From: Bogoriella caseilytica
GTDB lineage: Bacteria > Actinomycetota > Actinomycetes > Actinomycetales > Actinomycetaceae
Reading direction: 5' to 3'
Assembly: GCF_003752405.1 (NCBI RefSeq)
Contig: NZ_RKHK01000001.1
Span: 1,736,001-1,800,000 of the forward strand
Length of the DNA stretch: 64,000 bases
Shown here: one piece after another, positions 1-10,101 of the stretch
Numbering within the stretch: the first letter of the stretch is position 1
Layout of the letters: every line of letters begins with the position of its first letter
The notes under the pieces: generated by a model
Databases searched by the model: none
Told to the model about the DNA's origin: nothing
The model's input: the letters and a program-made list of their open reading frames with translations, nothing else
Program-made: the position numbers and the translations under genes

Positions 1-1
1 G

Positions 2-763
2 GTCCTGGCTCACATGGCGGCGGCGGATGAGCACGGCCTTTCCGAGGCCGAGCGCGCCCGCCGTGAGGACCGGGAAGGGCGCGCCTTCCGTGCGGCCAGC
101 GCGGTGGTGGCCACCAGCAAGACCGCCGCCCGAGACCTCGAGCGGCGCCACCGGCTCACTCAGGTGCACGTCGCGCTGCCCGGGATGCGGGCGCAACCAC
201 CGGCGGCCGGCTCCGATCCACCGCGCATCCTCGCCGTCGGGGCGGTGACGCCCACCAAGGATCACCGCACTCTCCTGCGCGCCCTCTCCCACCTGTCCGA
301 ACTGCATTGGAGTGCCCGCATCGTGGGCTCGGACGACCTCGATCCGGCCCTAACGGGCGAGCTCGCCGCCATGATCCGTCACGAGGGCTGGTCGGACCGG
401 GTCCGGCTCACCGGGGCGTTGACCGGCGAGCCGCTGGAAGTGCAGTGGTGCGCCGCCGACCTGCTGGTGCTGCCCTCGCGCCACGAGACCTACGGACTGG
501 TGGTCCTCGAGGCGCTGGCCCACGGGATCCCGGCCGTGGTCACCGACACCGGTGCCGCAGAAGCCTTGGCCGTGGGGGGGCCGGGGCGCCCACTTCCCGG
601 CGTTGTGGTCCCCGTGGGGGACGCCTCGGCTCTTGCTGATCGACTCCGCGCGTGGGCGAGCGCCGACGGGCTTCGCACTGCCTGGCGCAGGCGTGCCGGT
701 GCAGTGCGGGAAATGCTGCCTTCCTGGGAGCAGACAGCGCGGAGCGTCCGCCGCATCATCTGA
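2..763 (+). CDS. GT4-family glycosyltransferase, 5' truncated by window edge
   Basis: This is the C-terminal part of a retaining glycosyltransferase of the GT-B fold, family 4, which moves a sugar from a nucleotide donor to an unknown acceptor. The reading frame is open to the first bases of the window. The ATG at 14 is probably internal, because family members carry about 150 more N-terminal residues. Counting from that ATG, the family signature E-x7-E is present as E158 to E166, preceded by a donor-site stretch LVLPSRHE. A linker strand (RILAVGAVTPTKDH, residues 71-84) marks the start of the C-terminal Rossmann domain. It converges on the cyclohydrolase-reductase gene with a 16-base gap. 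The substrate cannot be deduced. Confidence 0.85.
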   Translation, partial: VLAHMAAADEHGLSEAERARREDREGRAFRAASAVVATSKTAARDLERRHRLTQVHVALPGMRAQPPAAGSDPPRILAVGAVTPTKDHRTLLRALSHLSELHWSARIVGSDDLDPALTGELAAMIRHEGWSDRVRLTGALTGEPLEVQWCAADLLVLPSRHETYGLVVLEALAHGIPAVVTDTGAAEALAVGGPGRPLPGVVVPVGDASALADRLRAWASADGLRTAWRRRAGAVREMLPSWEQTARSVRRII

Positions 764-779
764 CCATGCGCCGCCCGGG

Positions 780-2171
780 CTAGGAGTCCGCGAGCACGAA
801 CTCAGTGCAGACGTCCTCGCCGAGGTTCCAGCGCCGGTTCGGGGCGCGGACGGCCTCAGCCAAGCGCGGGGAGCCGTTGAAGCGCAGACCGGGCACGCCG
901 TCGCCGATGAGAACTGGCGCCACCGTGATGAACAGCCGATCCAACGCCCCAGCGGCCAGGAAGGCGGACACCAGCCTTCCGCCCCCCTCCACGAGCACGC
1001 GCTCCAGGCCCCGCTCGTGCAGCAAGGCCAGCACGTCCGCCGGGGCGAACCCGCGCTCGGACACCGGAGCCCGCACCACGCTCACGTGGGGGAGCGGATT
1101 GGCCACCTCCGTGGGATCCGGGGCTTCGTCTCCGATGATCCAGAGGGTGGGGGCCTCGCTCTCGGTCAGTACATGAGCGGTGCGAGGCAGGCGTGCCCGG
1201 GGGTCGAGCACCACCCGAACCGGGTGGGCGCCAGCAGTCAGGCGCACGGTGAGGCGGGCATCGTCGGCGATCACGGTGGAGGCCCCGACCACCACCGCGT
1301 CCACCTGGGCGCGCAGGCGGTGGAGGTGGGTGTGGTCCACCTCGCCGGTCAGCCGTGCGCCGTCGCCGGTTCTGGAAGCGATGAACCCGTCGATGGACTG
1401 CCCCATCTGCGCGATCGTCAGCGCCCCGGTGGCCTGCGCGAGGGGACCATAGCGTTCGACAAGCTCCCGCTCGGCATCGGAGGTCAGCGCCGACATCGGC
1501 GGCACCTGCCCGGCCAACAGCATGGACCAGGCATCCGGGAGCGCAGAGATGGCATCGTGACGCATCCTGCGGCGCTTGGTGTCCAGGTAGAAGGCGTTCT
1601 CGGGGCGATCCTCCACGGCAGGCCGGCGCCGCGCCGCGACCTCGATGCCATAGTCGTTCAACCGCTCACCCTTCTCGGGGTTGGCGGTGAGCAGCGTGAT
1701 CCGGGTGGCGCCCAGGTCGTGCAGGATTCCCGCCACCTCGGAGTAGTCCCGGGCATCGGCGGGGTACCCCAGACGCAGGTTCGCGTCCACGGTGTCCACG
1801 CCGGTGTCCTGCAATGCATAGGCATGCAGCTTGGCGAGCAGGCCGATCCCGCGGCCTTCGTGCCCCCGGGCATAGATGAGCGCTCCGCGCCCCTCGGCGG
1901 CGATCGCGGCCAGGGCGGCCTGGAGCTGCTCACCGCAGTCGCAGCGGTAGGAGCCGAGCGCATCACCGGTGAGGCACTCCGAGTGCACCCGCACCAGTGG
2001 CGGCGGGCCGGACGAGCTTTCCACGTCACCCATCACCAGGGCCACATGGCCGAGGCCACCGGCGCCCTCGTAGCCCATCATCCGGAAGGTGCCGTGCCGG
2101 GTGGGCAGGCGTGTCTCGACGGACCGCTGCAGGGTGGAGTGTGCGGTTCTCGTGTGGTCCAGGTCAGTCAC
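780..2171 (-). CDS. GTP cyclohydrolase II / RibD-type pyrimidine reductase fusion
   Basis: The protein has 463 residues in two domains. Residues 15-210 are a GTP cyclohydrolase II. Its zinc ligands are C66, C77 and C79 (C-x10-C-x-C), and it has the loop RGHEGRGIGL (102-111) and the DANLRLGYPADARDY segment. Cyclohydrolase II opens GTP to a diaminopyrimidinone ribotide with loss of formate. Residues 250-460 resemble the RibD C-terminal / dihydrofolate-reductase-like reductase: DGFIAS, VVVGASTV, VLVEGGGRLV. The RibD deaminase domain is absent and there is no 3,4-DHBP synthase domain, so this is not the usual RibAB or RibDG. It starts with GTG and is divergent from the polyketide operon. A role in a side branch of riboflavin or pterin chemistry is inference; it may also supply ordinary riboflavin synthesis. 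Confidence 0.88.
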   Translation of the reverse strand: MTDLDHTRTAHSTLQRSVETRLPTRHGTFRMMGYEGAGGLGHVALVMGDVESSSGPPPLVRVHSECLTGDALGSYRCDCGEQLQAALAAIAAEGRGALIYARGHEGRGIGLLAKLHAYALQDTGVDTVDANLRLGYPADARDYSEVAGILHDLGATRITLLTANPEKGERLNDYGIEVAARRRPAVEDRPENAFYLDTKRRRMRHDAISALPDAWSMLLAGQVPPMSALTSDAERELVERYGPLAQATGALTIAQMGQSIDGFIASRTGDGARLTGEVDHTHLHRLRAQVDAVVVGASTVIADDARLTVRLTAGAHPVRVVLDPRARLPRTAHVLTESEAPTLWIIGDEAPDPTEVANPLPHVSVVRAPVSERGFAPADVLALLHERGLERVLVEGGGRLVSAFLAAGALDRLFITVAPVLIGDGVPGLRFNGSPRLAEAVRAPNRRWNLGEDVCTEFVLADS

Positions 2172-6953: not shown

Positions 6954-7187
6954 TCGGAATACCTAACGTATGTCACTGCCCCGTGGCGCTCCGAGACTGA
7001 CGGAGGCTACCGGGGCTCCACTGGAGGGGGTGGAGCACACGTGACGCTACCTGAGTCGTGCTGGAATGTCACGATTCGGTTACGAATGTGGCTGAGGCCA
7101 CTCTCGCGGCGCTCGTGGCGACTCGCTTCTGTGGAAAACCGGGGGTGCCGGATCGTGCCGGGCGACGTTGCCGGGGCTGATCAAGAC

Positions 7188-7275
7188 TGGCGGAGGATGG
7201 GGGATTCGAACCCCCGAGGGCGTTAACCCAACCCGCTTTCCAAGCGAGCGCCATAGGCCACTAGGCGAATCCTCC
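7188..7275 (-). tRNA. tRNA-Ser (anticodon GGA)
   Basis: An 88-nt class II tRNA on the minus strand with encoded CCA (7188-7190). Acceptor GGAGGAT pairs with ATCCTCC, with discriminator G. The anticodon loop TTGGAAA gives GGA, reading UCC and UCU. A long variable arm and the T-loop GGTTCGAAT are present. Confidence 0.97.
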
Positions 7276-7386
7276 TGGGCGATGCCGCATGAGCACCGAG
7301 TGACGAGGATACCGGAGGACGGTCGGGGGTCTCGACCCCCTGGCGGTGCGGGGGACGTGCCCTTCCTCACCCGTGGGGCGCGCGGG

Positions 7387-7415
7387 TGACGGCGCCGGGG
7401 CGGCTTGCGTAGAGT
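7387..7415 (+). promoter_or_regulatory. Promoter of the SRP RNA gene
   Basis: TGACGG at 7387 (or GTGACG at 7386) as -35, a 17-base spacer and TAGAGT at 7410-7415 as -10. The predicted start falls at about 7421, where the RNA stem begins. Confidence 0.5.
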
Positions 7416-7417
7416 GG

Positions 7418-7513
7418 GGGCAGACCCCCCGTGTGGCGTCACCTCACCCAACTCCCCCAGGGCCGGAAGGCAGCAAGGGTCAGTGAGCTCTGACGGGTGC
7501 GCGGGGGGTCCTT
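7418..7513 (+). ncRNA. ffs: 4.5S / small SRP RNA
   Basis: The conserved SRP domain IV is present: GGCCGGAAGGCAGCAAGGGT (7461-7480) carries the GGAA tetraloop and the asymmetric Ffh-binding loop. The ends pair as GACCCCCC (7423-7430) with GGGGGGTC (7503-7510). It pairs with Ffh to target membrane proteins. The position directly upstream of dnaX is usual for actinobacteria. The ends are approximate. Confidence 0.93.
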
Positions 7514-7608
7514 TCATGGTGATCAGCCCCGTGGGTGGCTCGTTGCCGGATCAGGCGAGGTGGGTGATCCGAGCGGCCCGAGTGGCTCCCCGTGTCACCG
7601 GGCGCCGA

Positions 7609-7620: not shown

Positions 7621-10101
7621 GTGAGCACCGCCCTGTACCGCCGCTACCGCCCGCAGGCCTTCCAAGAGGTCATCGGGCAGGAGCATGTGACCGAGCCGCT
7701 GATGGCTGCCCTGCGGGCTGACCGGGCCAACCACGCCTATCTCTTCTCCGGGCCGCGAGGCTGCGGGAAGACCACCTCGGCACGCATCCTGGCCCGTTGC
7801 CTCAACTGCGTGGAAGGCCCCACTGATACCCCGTGCGGGACATGCCCGTCGTGCGTGGAACTGGCGCGCGGAGGAGCGGGCTCACTCGACGTCGTCGAGA
7901 TCGACGCTGCCTCGCACAACGGCGTCGACGATGCGCGCGAACTCCGCGAGCGCGCCACCTATGCGCCAGCGCGTGACCGGTACAAGATCTTCATCCTCGA
8001 CGAGGCCCACATGGTGACCGCGCAGGGGTTCAACGCCCTGCTCAAGCTCGTGGAGGAGCCTCCGGATCACGTCAAATTCGTGTTCGCGACCACCGAGCCG
8101 GAGAAGGTCATCGGGACCATCCGCTCGCGCACGCACCACTATCCCTTCCGGCTCGTCCCGCCGGAGCAGTTGCTCGGCTACCTCGAGCAGCTCAGCCAGG
8201 CCGAGGGGGTCGAGGTAGCCACCGGAGTGCTGCCCATGGTGGTGCGTGCTGGCGGCGGTTCGGTGCGGGACACCCTCTCGGTGCTCGATCAGCTCCTTGC
8301 CGGTGCTGAGGGAAGGCTGGAGTACCCCCGCGCGCTGGCCCTGCTCGGCTATACCGACGCCACCCTGCTCGATGACGGGCTCGACGCCCTGGCCGCGCGC
8401 GACGGCGCCACCCTCTTCCGGGTGGTGGACCGGTTGATGGAGTCCGGGCACGATCCGCGCCGTTTCGTCGAAGACCTTCTTGAACGACTGCGCGATCTTG
8501 TGCTGATTGCGGTCTCCGATGGTCATGCTGCAGCGCTGCGGGGGCTACCGCAGGATCAGCTCGAGCGGATGCGTACCCAGTCACGCAACCTGGGGCTCAC
8601 GCGGCTCTCGCGTGCTGCGGATCTGGTCAATGACGCCCTGAGCGAGATGAGCGGAGCCACCTCACCGCGCCTGCAGCTCGAACTGCTCTGCGCACGGCTC
8701 GTGCTGCCCGCTGAGCCTGCTGCCGATGCCGGGGCGGGCGGGGATGGCGTCGCCGGTGCTGGCGGCCCGGCTGCTGGGGGGCCGGCCCGGCCGGCTGATC
8801 CCCCCGCAGTGGCCCCCTCCGCGTCACTCTCCACAGCGGGGAGTGGCCGCCCCGCGAAGCCCTTGCGGATCCCCACCTCCGACGAGCAGGCACATCCTGC
8901 ACCAGCGGCCTCGGTGCCGCCACCGCCCCGCCCAGAAGGTGGCCACGTATCGCCGGCTCCGGACTCCGAGGCGGCGCAGGCCGGCACGGACCAGCCCGCA
9001 GAAGCGCCGGCGCCGCCCGTGCGGTCTGCACCGGCGGCCGAGCGCACGGCGCCCGCGACGTCTGCTGCCCAGACTCCACAGCCAGTTACGCCCGCACCGC
9101 GGGACCGGGACGCTGCGGCCTCCACCTCTGCTGCTGAGGAGTCCGACGAGCCGGCCGAGCAGGTGGAGATGATCCGCCGTCGCTGGAGTGAAGTCACCGA
9201 GACCCTGCGGGGCCTGCGGGTGGTCACCTGGGCCCTCGTGGGCCAGCACGCCCAGGTGGGCACGGTCAGTGGCACCACGCTCCACCTCCTCTTTCCTGGT
9301 GCAGGCATGGTCGAGACCTTCCGGAGCGGCAACCACGCCCAGCATGTCGAGCGCGCACTGAACGAGACGCTCGGCGTGCGCCTGTCGGTCGAGGCGGTCG
9401 CCGACGGAGGCGGCCCCGAGGGCGGACCGGGCGGCGGGGAAGCCACGGCGGCTCCGCGCCCAGACGCGACAGCGCCTGCCGAAGCTGGGCGTCCCGATCG
9501 GGGGCGTCCCGCAGCTCCCGCTGACACTGCTGCTCAGGACCAGGTTCCGACCGGCGATGAGCGTCCTTCCACACAGCCGAGCCCCGAGCCTGCGCCGCAG
9601 CCCGCATCTGAGTCGGCACCTCCGGCCGTGGAGGAGGACGACGGGGGTTGGCCCACGGTTGCCCTACCGCCGGACCGCGCTTCGTCTGCCACACCGGCCA
9701 CGCCTGCAGGCCGGCATGGCCCCAGCAGTGTCTCGCCTGCGAGCGGTGCAGGCGGGGCCGGTGCTCCTCCGCAGCCCGAGGCGGAGTCCGCCGAGCCGGC
9801 CGCCGCAGAGGCCTGGCCGAGCGTCACCGCGGCCGGCATGGCGCCCGCCGAGGAGGCCGTCGTCGGCCCGGAGCCCGCATCCGAGCCTGAGCCGGAGGAG
9901 GAACCGCCGGCGGACGGCTTCGGTGAGCCCCCGCCCGATGCGGAGCGCCCCACTCTCCGTCTGGTCCCGCCCATGGACGACGACCCTTCCGAGGATGACC
10001 CCGACGTCGAGGGGTCTTCGATGGTCGGTGTGCCGCTCGTGGAACGCATCCTCGGCGGGCGCATCATTGAGGAGATTCCCCTCCAGGGCGATCGATCCTG
10101 A
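7621..10101 (+). CDS. dnaX: DNA polymerase III subunits gamma and tau
   Basis: An 826-residue clamp-loader ATPase. I chose GTG 7621, giving STALYRRYRPQAF, the family N-terminus; the frame extends upstream to 7405, but that part lies over the SRP RNA. Walker A is GPRGCGKT (44-51), four of the five cysteines at 60, 63, 72, 75 and 78 form the zinc module, Walker B is ILDEAH (125-130), and sensor 1 is FATTEPEKV. Residues about 365-500 and 600-820 are very rich in Ala, Pro and Glu, typical of actinobacterial tau. A second folded region (about 510-600) contains RRRWSEVTETLRGL. I see no A-rich slippery site for programmed frameshifting. Confidence 0.95.
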   Translation: MSTALYRRYRPQAFQEVIGQEHVTEPLMAALRADRANHAYLFSGPRGCGKTTSARILARCLNCVEGPTDTPCGTCPSCVELARGGAGSLDVVEIDAASHNGVDDARELRERATYAPARDRYKIFILDEAHMVTAQGFNALLKLVEEPPDHVKFVFATTEPEKVIGTIRSRTHHYPFRLVPPEQLLGYLEQLSQAEGVEVATGVLPMVVRAGGGSVRDTLSVLDQLLAGAEGRLEYPRALALLGYTDATLLDDGLDALAARDGATLFRVVDRLMESGHDPRRFVEDLLERLRDLVLIAVSDGHAAALRGLPQDQLERMRTQSRNLGLTRLSRAADLVNDALSEMSGATSPRLQLELLCARLVLPAEPAADAGAGGDGVAGAGGPAAGGPARPADPPAVAPSASLSTAGSGRPAKPLRIPTSDEQAHPAPAASVPPPPRPEGGHVSPAPDSEAAQAGTDQPAEAPAPPVRSAPAAERTAPATSAAQTPQPVTPAPRDRDAAASTSAAEESDEPAEQVEMIRRRWSEVTETLRGLRVVTWALVGQHAQVGTVSGTTLHLLFPGAGMVETFRSGNHAQHVERALNETLGVRLSVEAVADGGGPEGGPGGGEATAAPRPDATAPAEAGRPDRGRPAAPADTAAQDQVPTGDERPSTQPSPEPAPQPASESAPPAVEEDDGGWPTVALPPDRASSATPATPAGRHGPSSVSPASGAGGAGAPPQPEAESAEPAAAEAWPSVTAAGMAPAEEAVVGPEPASEPEPEEEPPADGFGEPPPDAERPTLRLVPPMDDDPSEDDPDVEGSSMVGVPLVERILGGRIIEEIPLQGDRS

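Follow-up and report, generated by a model that had tools for sequence, protein, structure and literature searches.

The closest described relatives of the protein studied here, a fusion of GTP cyclohydrolase II (GCHII) with a reductase, are enzymes of riboflavin biosynthesis. In RibA (E. coli, PDB code 2bz0) and in the GCHII domain of RibBA, the fold, the zinc-binding cysteines and the residue equivalent to Tyr105 are the same as in the fusion. RibBA carries DHBP synthase at its NH2-terminus, however, whereas the fusion carries a reductase at its COOH-terminus and no FMN riboswitch was found in the window, by which we mean the whole stretch of 64,000 nucleotides of the Bogoriella caseilytica genome that was analysed. 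The archaeal and fungal reductases of DAROPP (2,5-diamino-6-ribosylamino-4(3H)-pyrimidinone 5'-phosphate), namely MthRED (6p8c), MjRED (2azn), MmRib7 (5xux) and ScRIB7, match the reductase half in fold, in the catalytic Asp and Glu, and in having a residue other than Lys at the substrate-selecting position. That residue is Asn or Thr in these enzymes but Gln in the fusion, which also has GCHII attached and lies on the bacterial-RibD side of the tree. The reductase domain of bacterial RibD/RibG belongs to the same Pfam family and is probably the nearest by tree, at a weakly supported fork; RibD/RibG has Lys151 and a deaminase domain, whereas the fusion has Gln, lacks the deaminase and falls in a well-supported clade of its own.

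For the surroundings of the gene, the best comparison is the SCO6650–SCO6655 region of S. coelicolor, in which SCO6650 (3d7j) is the uncharacterised PTPS homologue nearest to the PTPS-fold neighbour in the host. Streptomyces-type loci resemble the host cluster in having dehydrogenase, PTPS and GT4 glycosyltransferase genes in a row with GCHII nearby. They contain a non-Tyr GCHII and a creatininase-family protein, and all but one lack a reductase, whereas the host has a Tyr-type GCHII fused to a Gln-type reductase. Among the BrbF/ArfB formamidases, the creatininase-like BrbF parallels the creatininase gene of the non-Tyr clusters (PMC9478397); the host locus has no BrbF-like creatininase, and a Tyr-type GCHII should deformylate its intermediate unaided. 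We found nothing in the open literature searched on what the fusion does, on the reductase rule or on the pathway proposed below; the supplementary fusion tables of PMC4921024, outside the scope of that search, may list the fusion. Each domain belongs to a known family, and SCO6650 is known yet uncharacterised. What may be new, and is put forward tentatively, is a branch in which reduction precedes deamination, undescribed in bacteria as far as we found.

Domain composition and predicted structure of the fusion protein

The gene had been described, in an earlier note made from the sequence, as a cyclohydrolase II joined to a RibD-type reductase without a deaminase, and Pfam, NCBIfam and approximately 20 full-length relatives all confirmed this description. 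The Pfam scores given in Table 1 compare with cut-offs of 23.3 bits for GTP_cyclohydro2 (match at residues 16–181) and 24.1 bits for RibD_C (residues 253–426). Pfam detected no deaminase, nor any other domain besides these two, in the 463 amino acids. NCBIfam agreed with this assignment: TIGR00505 scored 213 bits (cut-off 205.85); TIGR00326, for RibD, reached 100 bits, below its cut-off of 156, with only the reductase part matched; and TIGR01508, for the archaeal DAROPP reductase, gave 117.5 bits and so missed its equivalog cut-off of 186. Alignment showed the zinc cysteines C66, C77 and C79 of GCHII to be intact together with Tyr118, and the active-site motifs of the reductase, TxxxD (T299, D303) and EGG (beginning at E395), to be retained. 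With phmmer, E. coli GCHII (2bz0) matched the fusion at 1.2e-53.

We obtained a structure model with AlphaFold2 from 17 sequences (mean pLDDT 86.7, pTM 0.56), which leaves the position of the two halves with respect to each other uncertain. The best structural matches found with Foldseek were E. coli GCHII (TM(target) 0.94) and MthRED (0.82), and the Rv2671 structures 4xrb, 4xt4 and 4xt6 were among the matches of the reductase half. Full-length relatives with 51–65% identity are present in approximately 20 other actinobacterial genomes, and a chance or assembly join was rejected on this ground. The enzyme families of both halves are well supported, whereas the substrate and product are what we infer.

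Table 1 Features of the fusion gene and of the adjoining glycosyltransferase gene, in window coordinates.
Feature	Position	Strand	Basis
GT4 glycosyltransferase, 3' part	1..763	+	Whole gene G000:C1:1735732-1736763; last gene of the dehydrogenase-PTPS-GT4 row
GCHII-RibD_C fusion protein	780..2171	-	Single ORF, GTG start, 463 aa; 16 full-length homologues aligned
GTP cyclohydrolase II (GCHII) domain, residues 16-205	1557..2126	-	PF00925 209 bits; E. coli GCHII 2bz0; Foldseek
Interdomain linker, residues 206-252	1416..1556	-	Lies between the Pfam domain matches; poorly conserved in the homologue alignment
RibD_C-type reductase domain, residues 253-460	792..1415	-	PF01872 138 bits; best solved relative MthRED 6p8c
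Tyr118 (E. coli Tyr105), putative deformylation switch residue	1818..1820	-	Tyr in every fusion
Gln255 (BsRibG Lys151, MjRED Asn, ScRIB7 Thr35), putative substrate-selecting position	1407..1409	-	Alignment; PMC3631187
Asp303, catalytic Asp (ScRIB7 Asp83)	1263..1265	-	Alignment; role from PMC3631187
Glu395, catalytic Glu (BsRibG Glu290, ScRIB7 Glu180), invariant	987..989	-	Alignment; role from PMC3631187

Riboflavin genes of the host genome

The host genome is complete (3.24 Mb, a single contig, 100% completeness), and the fusion is its only match to PF00925 in a profile search, even at E ≤ 10. The single match to PF00926 is a separate ribB of 221 amino acids without a RibA domain. An FMN riboswitch followed by ribD-ribE-ribB-ribH lies at 2.282–2.285 Mb, and the RibD encoded there, the separate ribDG that the earlier note had proposed to look for, is the full deaminase-reductase and retains the Lys equivalent to Lys151 of BsRibG. 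Given that this gene set otherwise has no GCHII, the fusion must supply the first riboflavin intermediate. Since ribD, ribE, ribB and ribH are present, we rejected the idea that decay of the pathway has made the host auxotrophic for riboflavin; control of the fusion by an FMN riboswitch was likewise rejected, as a search of the window gave no match to such an element. In locus L085, a ZTP riboswitch (9385-9472) precedes a glyA-like and then a folD-like gene directly after the riboflavin operon.

Among 18 fusion genomes of the order, seven (the host and six others) have no GCHII besides the fusion; the remaining 11 have a second one, mostly within RibBA. Two species of one genus (G215 and G133) differ in this respect. 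A full RibD was found in all 21 genomes searched.

Neighbouring genes and the PTPS cluster

The fusion gene and the GT4 gene are convergent, with 16 bases between their stop codons. Directly upstream of GT4 are a zinc-type dehydrogenase gene and a PTPS-fold gene (L086 7809-9735), which bears out the suggestion of the earlier note that pterin or methyltransferase genes might lie upstream of the window; the methyltransferase part of that suggestion applies to many related clusters, which contain a SAM methyltransferase, but not to that of the host. The best solved match of the PTPS-fold protein is SCO6650 (3d7j, 121 bits), compared with approximately 30 bits for QueD. In the host protein, HGA replaces the HGH motif of QueD, the second His being absent. 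We rejected its assignment as a standard QueD on the basis of this motif and of a TIGR03367 score of 47.6 bits against a cut-off of 89. With a dehydrogenase, an HGH-less PTPS-fold protein and GT4 in a row, the host locus is a cluster of the SCO6650 type.

The same row recurs beside the fusion or a free reductase across families, where it is usually joined by a SAM methyltransferase and an LPG_synthase_TM membrane protein and often by a CDP-alcohol phosphatidyltransferase. None of these three was found in the 9-kb locus of the host, and neither was the Streptomyces form of the cluster, with a creatininase-family gene and a non-Tyr GCHII; the GCHII of the host has Tyr118. GT4 is conserved beside the fusion, but the phenolic-lipid operon that the earlier note also named as a neighbour is not. 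Genes for a type III PKS, an ICMT-family methyltransferase and an FAD-dependent reductase do follow on the 3' side and are compatible with such an operon; in the related loci that we examined none of them adjoined the fusion, and we rejected them as part of the fusion system. Elsewhere in the window, a tRNA gene (7191-7275, minus strand) and a small SRP RNA gene (7420-7516, plus strand) lie just upstream of a dnaX-like ORF (region 7080-7520). A proteobacterial metagenome contig (L032 7893-11848) encodes GCHII, a His-type reductase, a dehydrogenase, a PTPS-fold protein that keeps HGH and Cys, and GT4 in a row, so that the PTPS cluster may reach beyond actinobacteria.

The substrate-selecting position of the reductase

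Lys151 of BsRibG is thought to favour the deaminated compound AROPP, and the corresponding residue is Thr in fungi and Asn in archaea (PMC3631187). Replacement of this Thr by Lys in yeast RIB7 (T35K) moved the preference towards AROPP, the deaminated substrate (PMC3631187). The residue aligned with Lys151 is Gln255 in the fusion, and Gln was found in all relatives read, fused or free, with the exception of one His; the RibD proteins of those same genomes have Lys. In the tree, the Gln-type reductases group in a single clade (100/100), separate both from Lys-type RibD and from the reductases with Ser at this position, and a weakly supported fork places that clade on the side of bacterial RibD rather than with the archaeal enzymes. 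With the Lys of the deamination-first RibD lost, the direct coupling of ring opening to reduction that the earlier note had proposed is therefore plausible, although the Lys rule as applied here draws on structures and on one mutant study, which concerned Thr and Lys and not Gln. In the Streptomyces and family-f31 genomes that we examined, the principal riboflavin-type reductases seem to be the Ser-type enzymes, whose lack of Lys may simply reflect another order of riboflavin synthesis or relaxed specificity.

Co-occurrence of non-Lys reductases and the PTPS gene

A PTPS gene was present within approximately 8 kb in 19 of the 21 genomes of the order that made up the first count of carriers of the fusion or of a free reductase of the same type, and in 22 of 227 other genomes of the order (Fisher 3e-15, with phylogeny ignored). 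Across the class, the PTPS marker occurred in 64 of 395 sampled genomes and in 21 of 122 genera. Every one of the 41 PTPS-positive genomes in the order carries at least one RibD-type reductase without Lys: 24 have a Gln-type and eight a Ser-type enzyme, and nine, of family f5, have His in RibD itself. Nineteen of the Gln-type reductases are near PTPS (16 of them fused), and the other five adjoin GCHII away from PTPS. A non-Lys reductase was found in only five of 36 PTPS-negative genomes read (two with His-RibD and three with Ser-type), a difference (Fisher 1e-16) that ignores shared ancestry. The PTPS-negative genomes were picked by family, mostly from PTPS-positive families, and not at random; 40 were taken, of which one gave no RibD-type hit and three had RibDs that were left unread. 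Asn-type reductases resembling PRK14059/Rv2671 were excluded from the Lys counts. Both P values overstate independence, because the genomes share ancestry. Given that the Gln and Ser types are separate lineages, repeated recruitment looks likely. His in place of Lys was seen in RibD of loci L228, L230, L231, L234 and L286–L290 (family f5), and of L296 and L297, which are without the cluster.

In genus g22, the gene for the Gln-type reductase adjoins GCHII and not PTPS, and the two loci are unlinked; nevertheless, the reductase was present in 5/5 PTPS-positive and 0/6 PTPS-negative genomes, and PTPS-negative species (L112, L114) retain GCHII. Two other genomes, G038 (L151) and G109 (L155), have no PTPS gene and have the fusion as their sole GCHII. 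In both, catalytic Asp303 is changed to Glu, and in one of them Gln255 is changed to His. From these substitutions, the GCHII half seems to have been kept while the reductase half drifts; the two genomes are related, and the Asp303 change may be a single event.

Tyr-type and non-Tyr GCHII

We compared GCHII types across 52 cluster or fusion loci that contain GCHII. A non-Lys reductase accompanies the Tyr-type enzyme in 31/31 loci, the host locus included, and a creatininase-family gene in none of them (0/31). Loci with Met, Leu, His or Gln in place of Tyr have the creatininase-family gene in 20/21 cases (L174-L208) and a reductase in 1/21. SCO6655 of S. coelicolor reportedly halts at the formylamino intermediate owing to Met at the Tyr position. 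A creatininase-like protein of Sinorhizobium converts AFRPP to DAROPP by deformylation (PMC9478397). On this reading both forms of GCHII would lead to DAROPP, and the pairing of a creatininase-family protein with a non-Tyr GCHII suggests a two-enzyme bacterial route to this compound. A conserved ORF between the LPG_synthase_TM and GCHII genes of Streptomyces loci was discarded as a candidate gene, being antisense and without a family match; the sense gene is the creatininase.

Most genomes with the non-Tyr form have a Ser-type reductase elsewhere, which in Streptomyces is joined to a COOH-terminal deaminase. Examples of this reductase-deaminase, the reverse of the RibD order and with Ser at the Lys position, are found at L232 1420-2607 (plus strand) and L226 934-2067 (minus strand), in both of which Pfam matched the deaminase part, and more occur in L227, L229, L235, L243 and L255, all from Streptomyces-type genomes. 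No Lys-type RibD was seen in genomes with this protein. Only one Streptomyces-type genome, G382, encodes a Lys-type RibD; its cluster contains a Gln-type reductase, and the reverse-order protein was not found there. The latter is possibly a reduction-first RibD.

Proposed role and alternative explanations

We consider it somewhat probable that the fusion converts GTP through DAROPP to DARIPP and feeds the neighbouring PTPS pathway, with DAROPP also shared with riboflavin synthesis. The GCHII half would open GTP to DAROPP, and the reductase half, with NAD(P)H, would convert DAROPP in its still aminated form to the ribityl compound DARIPP, so that reduction would come ahead of deamination. DARIPP would then enter a pathway of the dehydrogenase, the SCO6650-type PTPS-fold protein and GT4, extended in many relatives by the methyltransferase and membrane proteins, that probably yields a glycosylated compound resembling a pterin or pyrimidine. 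Since the genome has no other GCHII, some of the DAROPP must also reach the ordinary RibD and serve riboflavin synthesis. The role in a side product that the earlier note had suggested is therefore upheld by the linkage to a pterin-like cluster but is not exclusive, since the fusion must also feed riboflavin; nothing that we found pointed to the deazaflavin-like product that it had also mentioned. The domains, the catalytic residues, the status as sole GCHII, the linkage to the cluster and the loss of Lys are well supported. The first step and the catalytic competence for the second are well supported from sequence. That DAROPP is the physiological substrate of the reductase we infer from the Lys argument together with the co-occurrence; that the branch starts from DARIPP, and what kind of compound it yields, are predictions. 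Counting against this model, the fusion of the host is convergent with the cluster genes and not co-transcribed with them, its PTPS-fold neighbour has lost the second His of HGH, and two genomes with His-RibD and three with Ser-type reductases are without the cluster.

The fusion might instead be an ordinary riboflavin enzyme, a RibA that carries a duplicate of the RibD reductase for channelling or extra dosage in the normal deamination-first pathway. Its position as the only GCHII in the host and in six other fusion genomes would be in keeping with this, as would the conserved catalytic residues of the reductase, and fusions of riboflavin genes are common (PMC4921024). GCHII and the reductase are, however, not consecutive steps of the bacterial pathway, and the genome already has a complete Lys-type RibD. 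The absence of Lys from the fusion reductase and its place in a 100/100 clade apart from RibD reductases, its co-occurrence with the PTPS gene, and the altered catalytic Asp in the two fusion genomes without PTPS also make an ordinary riboflavin function unlikely.

About as doubtful is a role for the reductase half further along the neighbouring pathway, where it would reduce some other intermediate, for instance a pterin-like one, instead of DAROPP, with its fusion to GCHII serving co-regulation only. Free reductases do occur in clusters whose GCHII lies elsewhere (L164, L166, L167), and a change of substrate within the RibD_C/DHFR fold has a precedent in Rv2671, which has the same fold and acts on dihydrofolate. 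The closest solved relatives, on the other hand, are DAROPP/AROPP reductases, with archaeal MthRED the best of them, and a fused or tandem arrangement with GCHII suits action on its immediate product. Moreover, in nine genomes the only candidate found is the riboflavin RibD with His for Lys, which still needs a riboflavin-type substrate. A riboflavin pathway that is itself reduction-first, in which DARIPP from the fusion is turned by a deaminase into the normal riboflavin precursor, would follow the enzyme order of archaea and fungi (PMC3631187, PMC8256712). We regard it as highly improbable, given that the RibD of the host is a full deaminase-reductase that keeps Lys and is under FMN-riboswitch control, that the linkage to PTPS would be left without a reason, and that the two fusion genomes with a changed reductase Asp still keep their riboflavin genes.

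Extended to the group as a whole, the proposed feeding of the PTPS pathway would amount to a widespread actinobacterial branch that runs from GTP through DAROPP to DARIPP before deamination and ends in a pterin-like compound that is glycosylated, often methylated and possibly linked to membranes, with the branch point from riboflavin inside one fused protein; this full scheme is possible, though we hold it with less than even confidence. The comparison gives the SCO6650 cluster a predicted entry metabolite and a genetic rule, namely a non-Lys reductase in 41/41 PTPS-positive genomes of the order. A further prediction is that the ring-opened pyrimidine is supplied in two forms, by a Tyr-type GCHII or by a non-Tyr GCHII together with a creatininase-family deformylase. 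If this is true, the annotation of these cluster genes as spare riboflavin genes would change, and the product could be searched for by metabolomics in soil actinobacteria.
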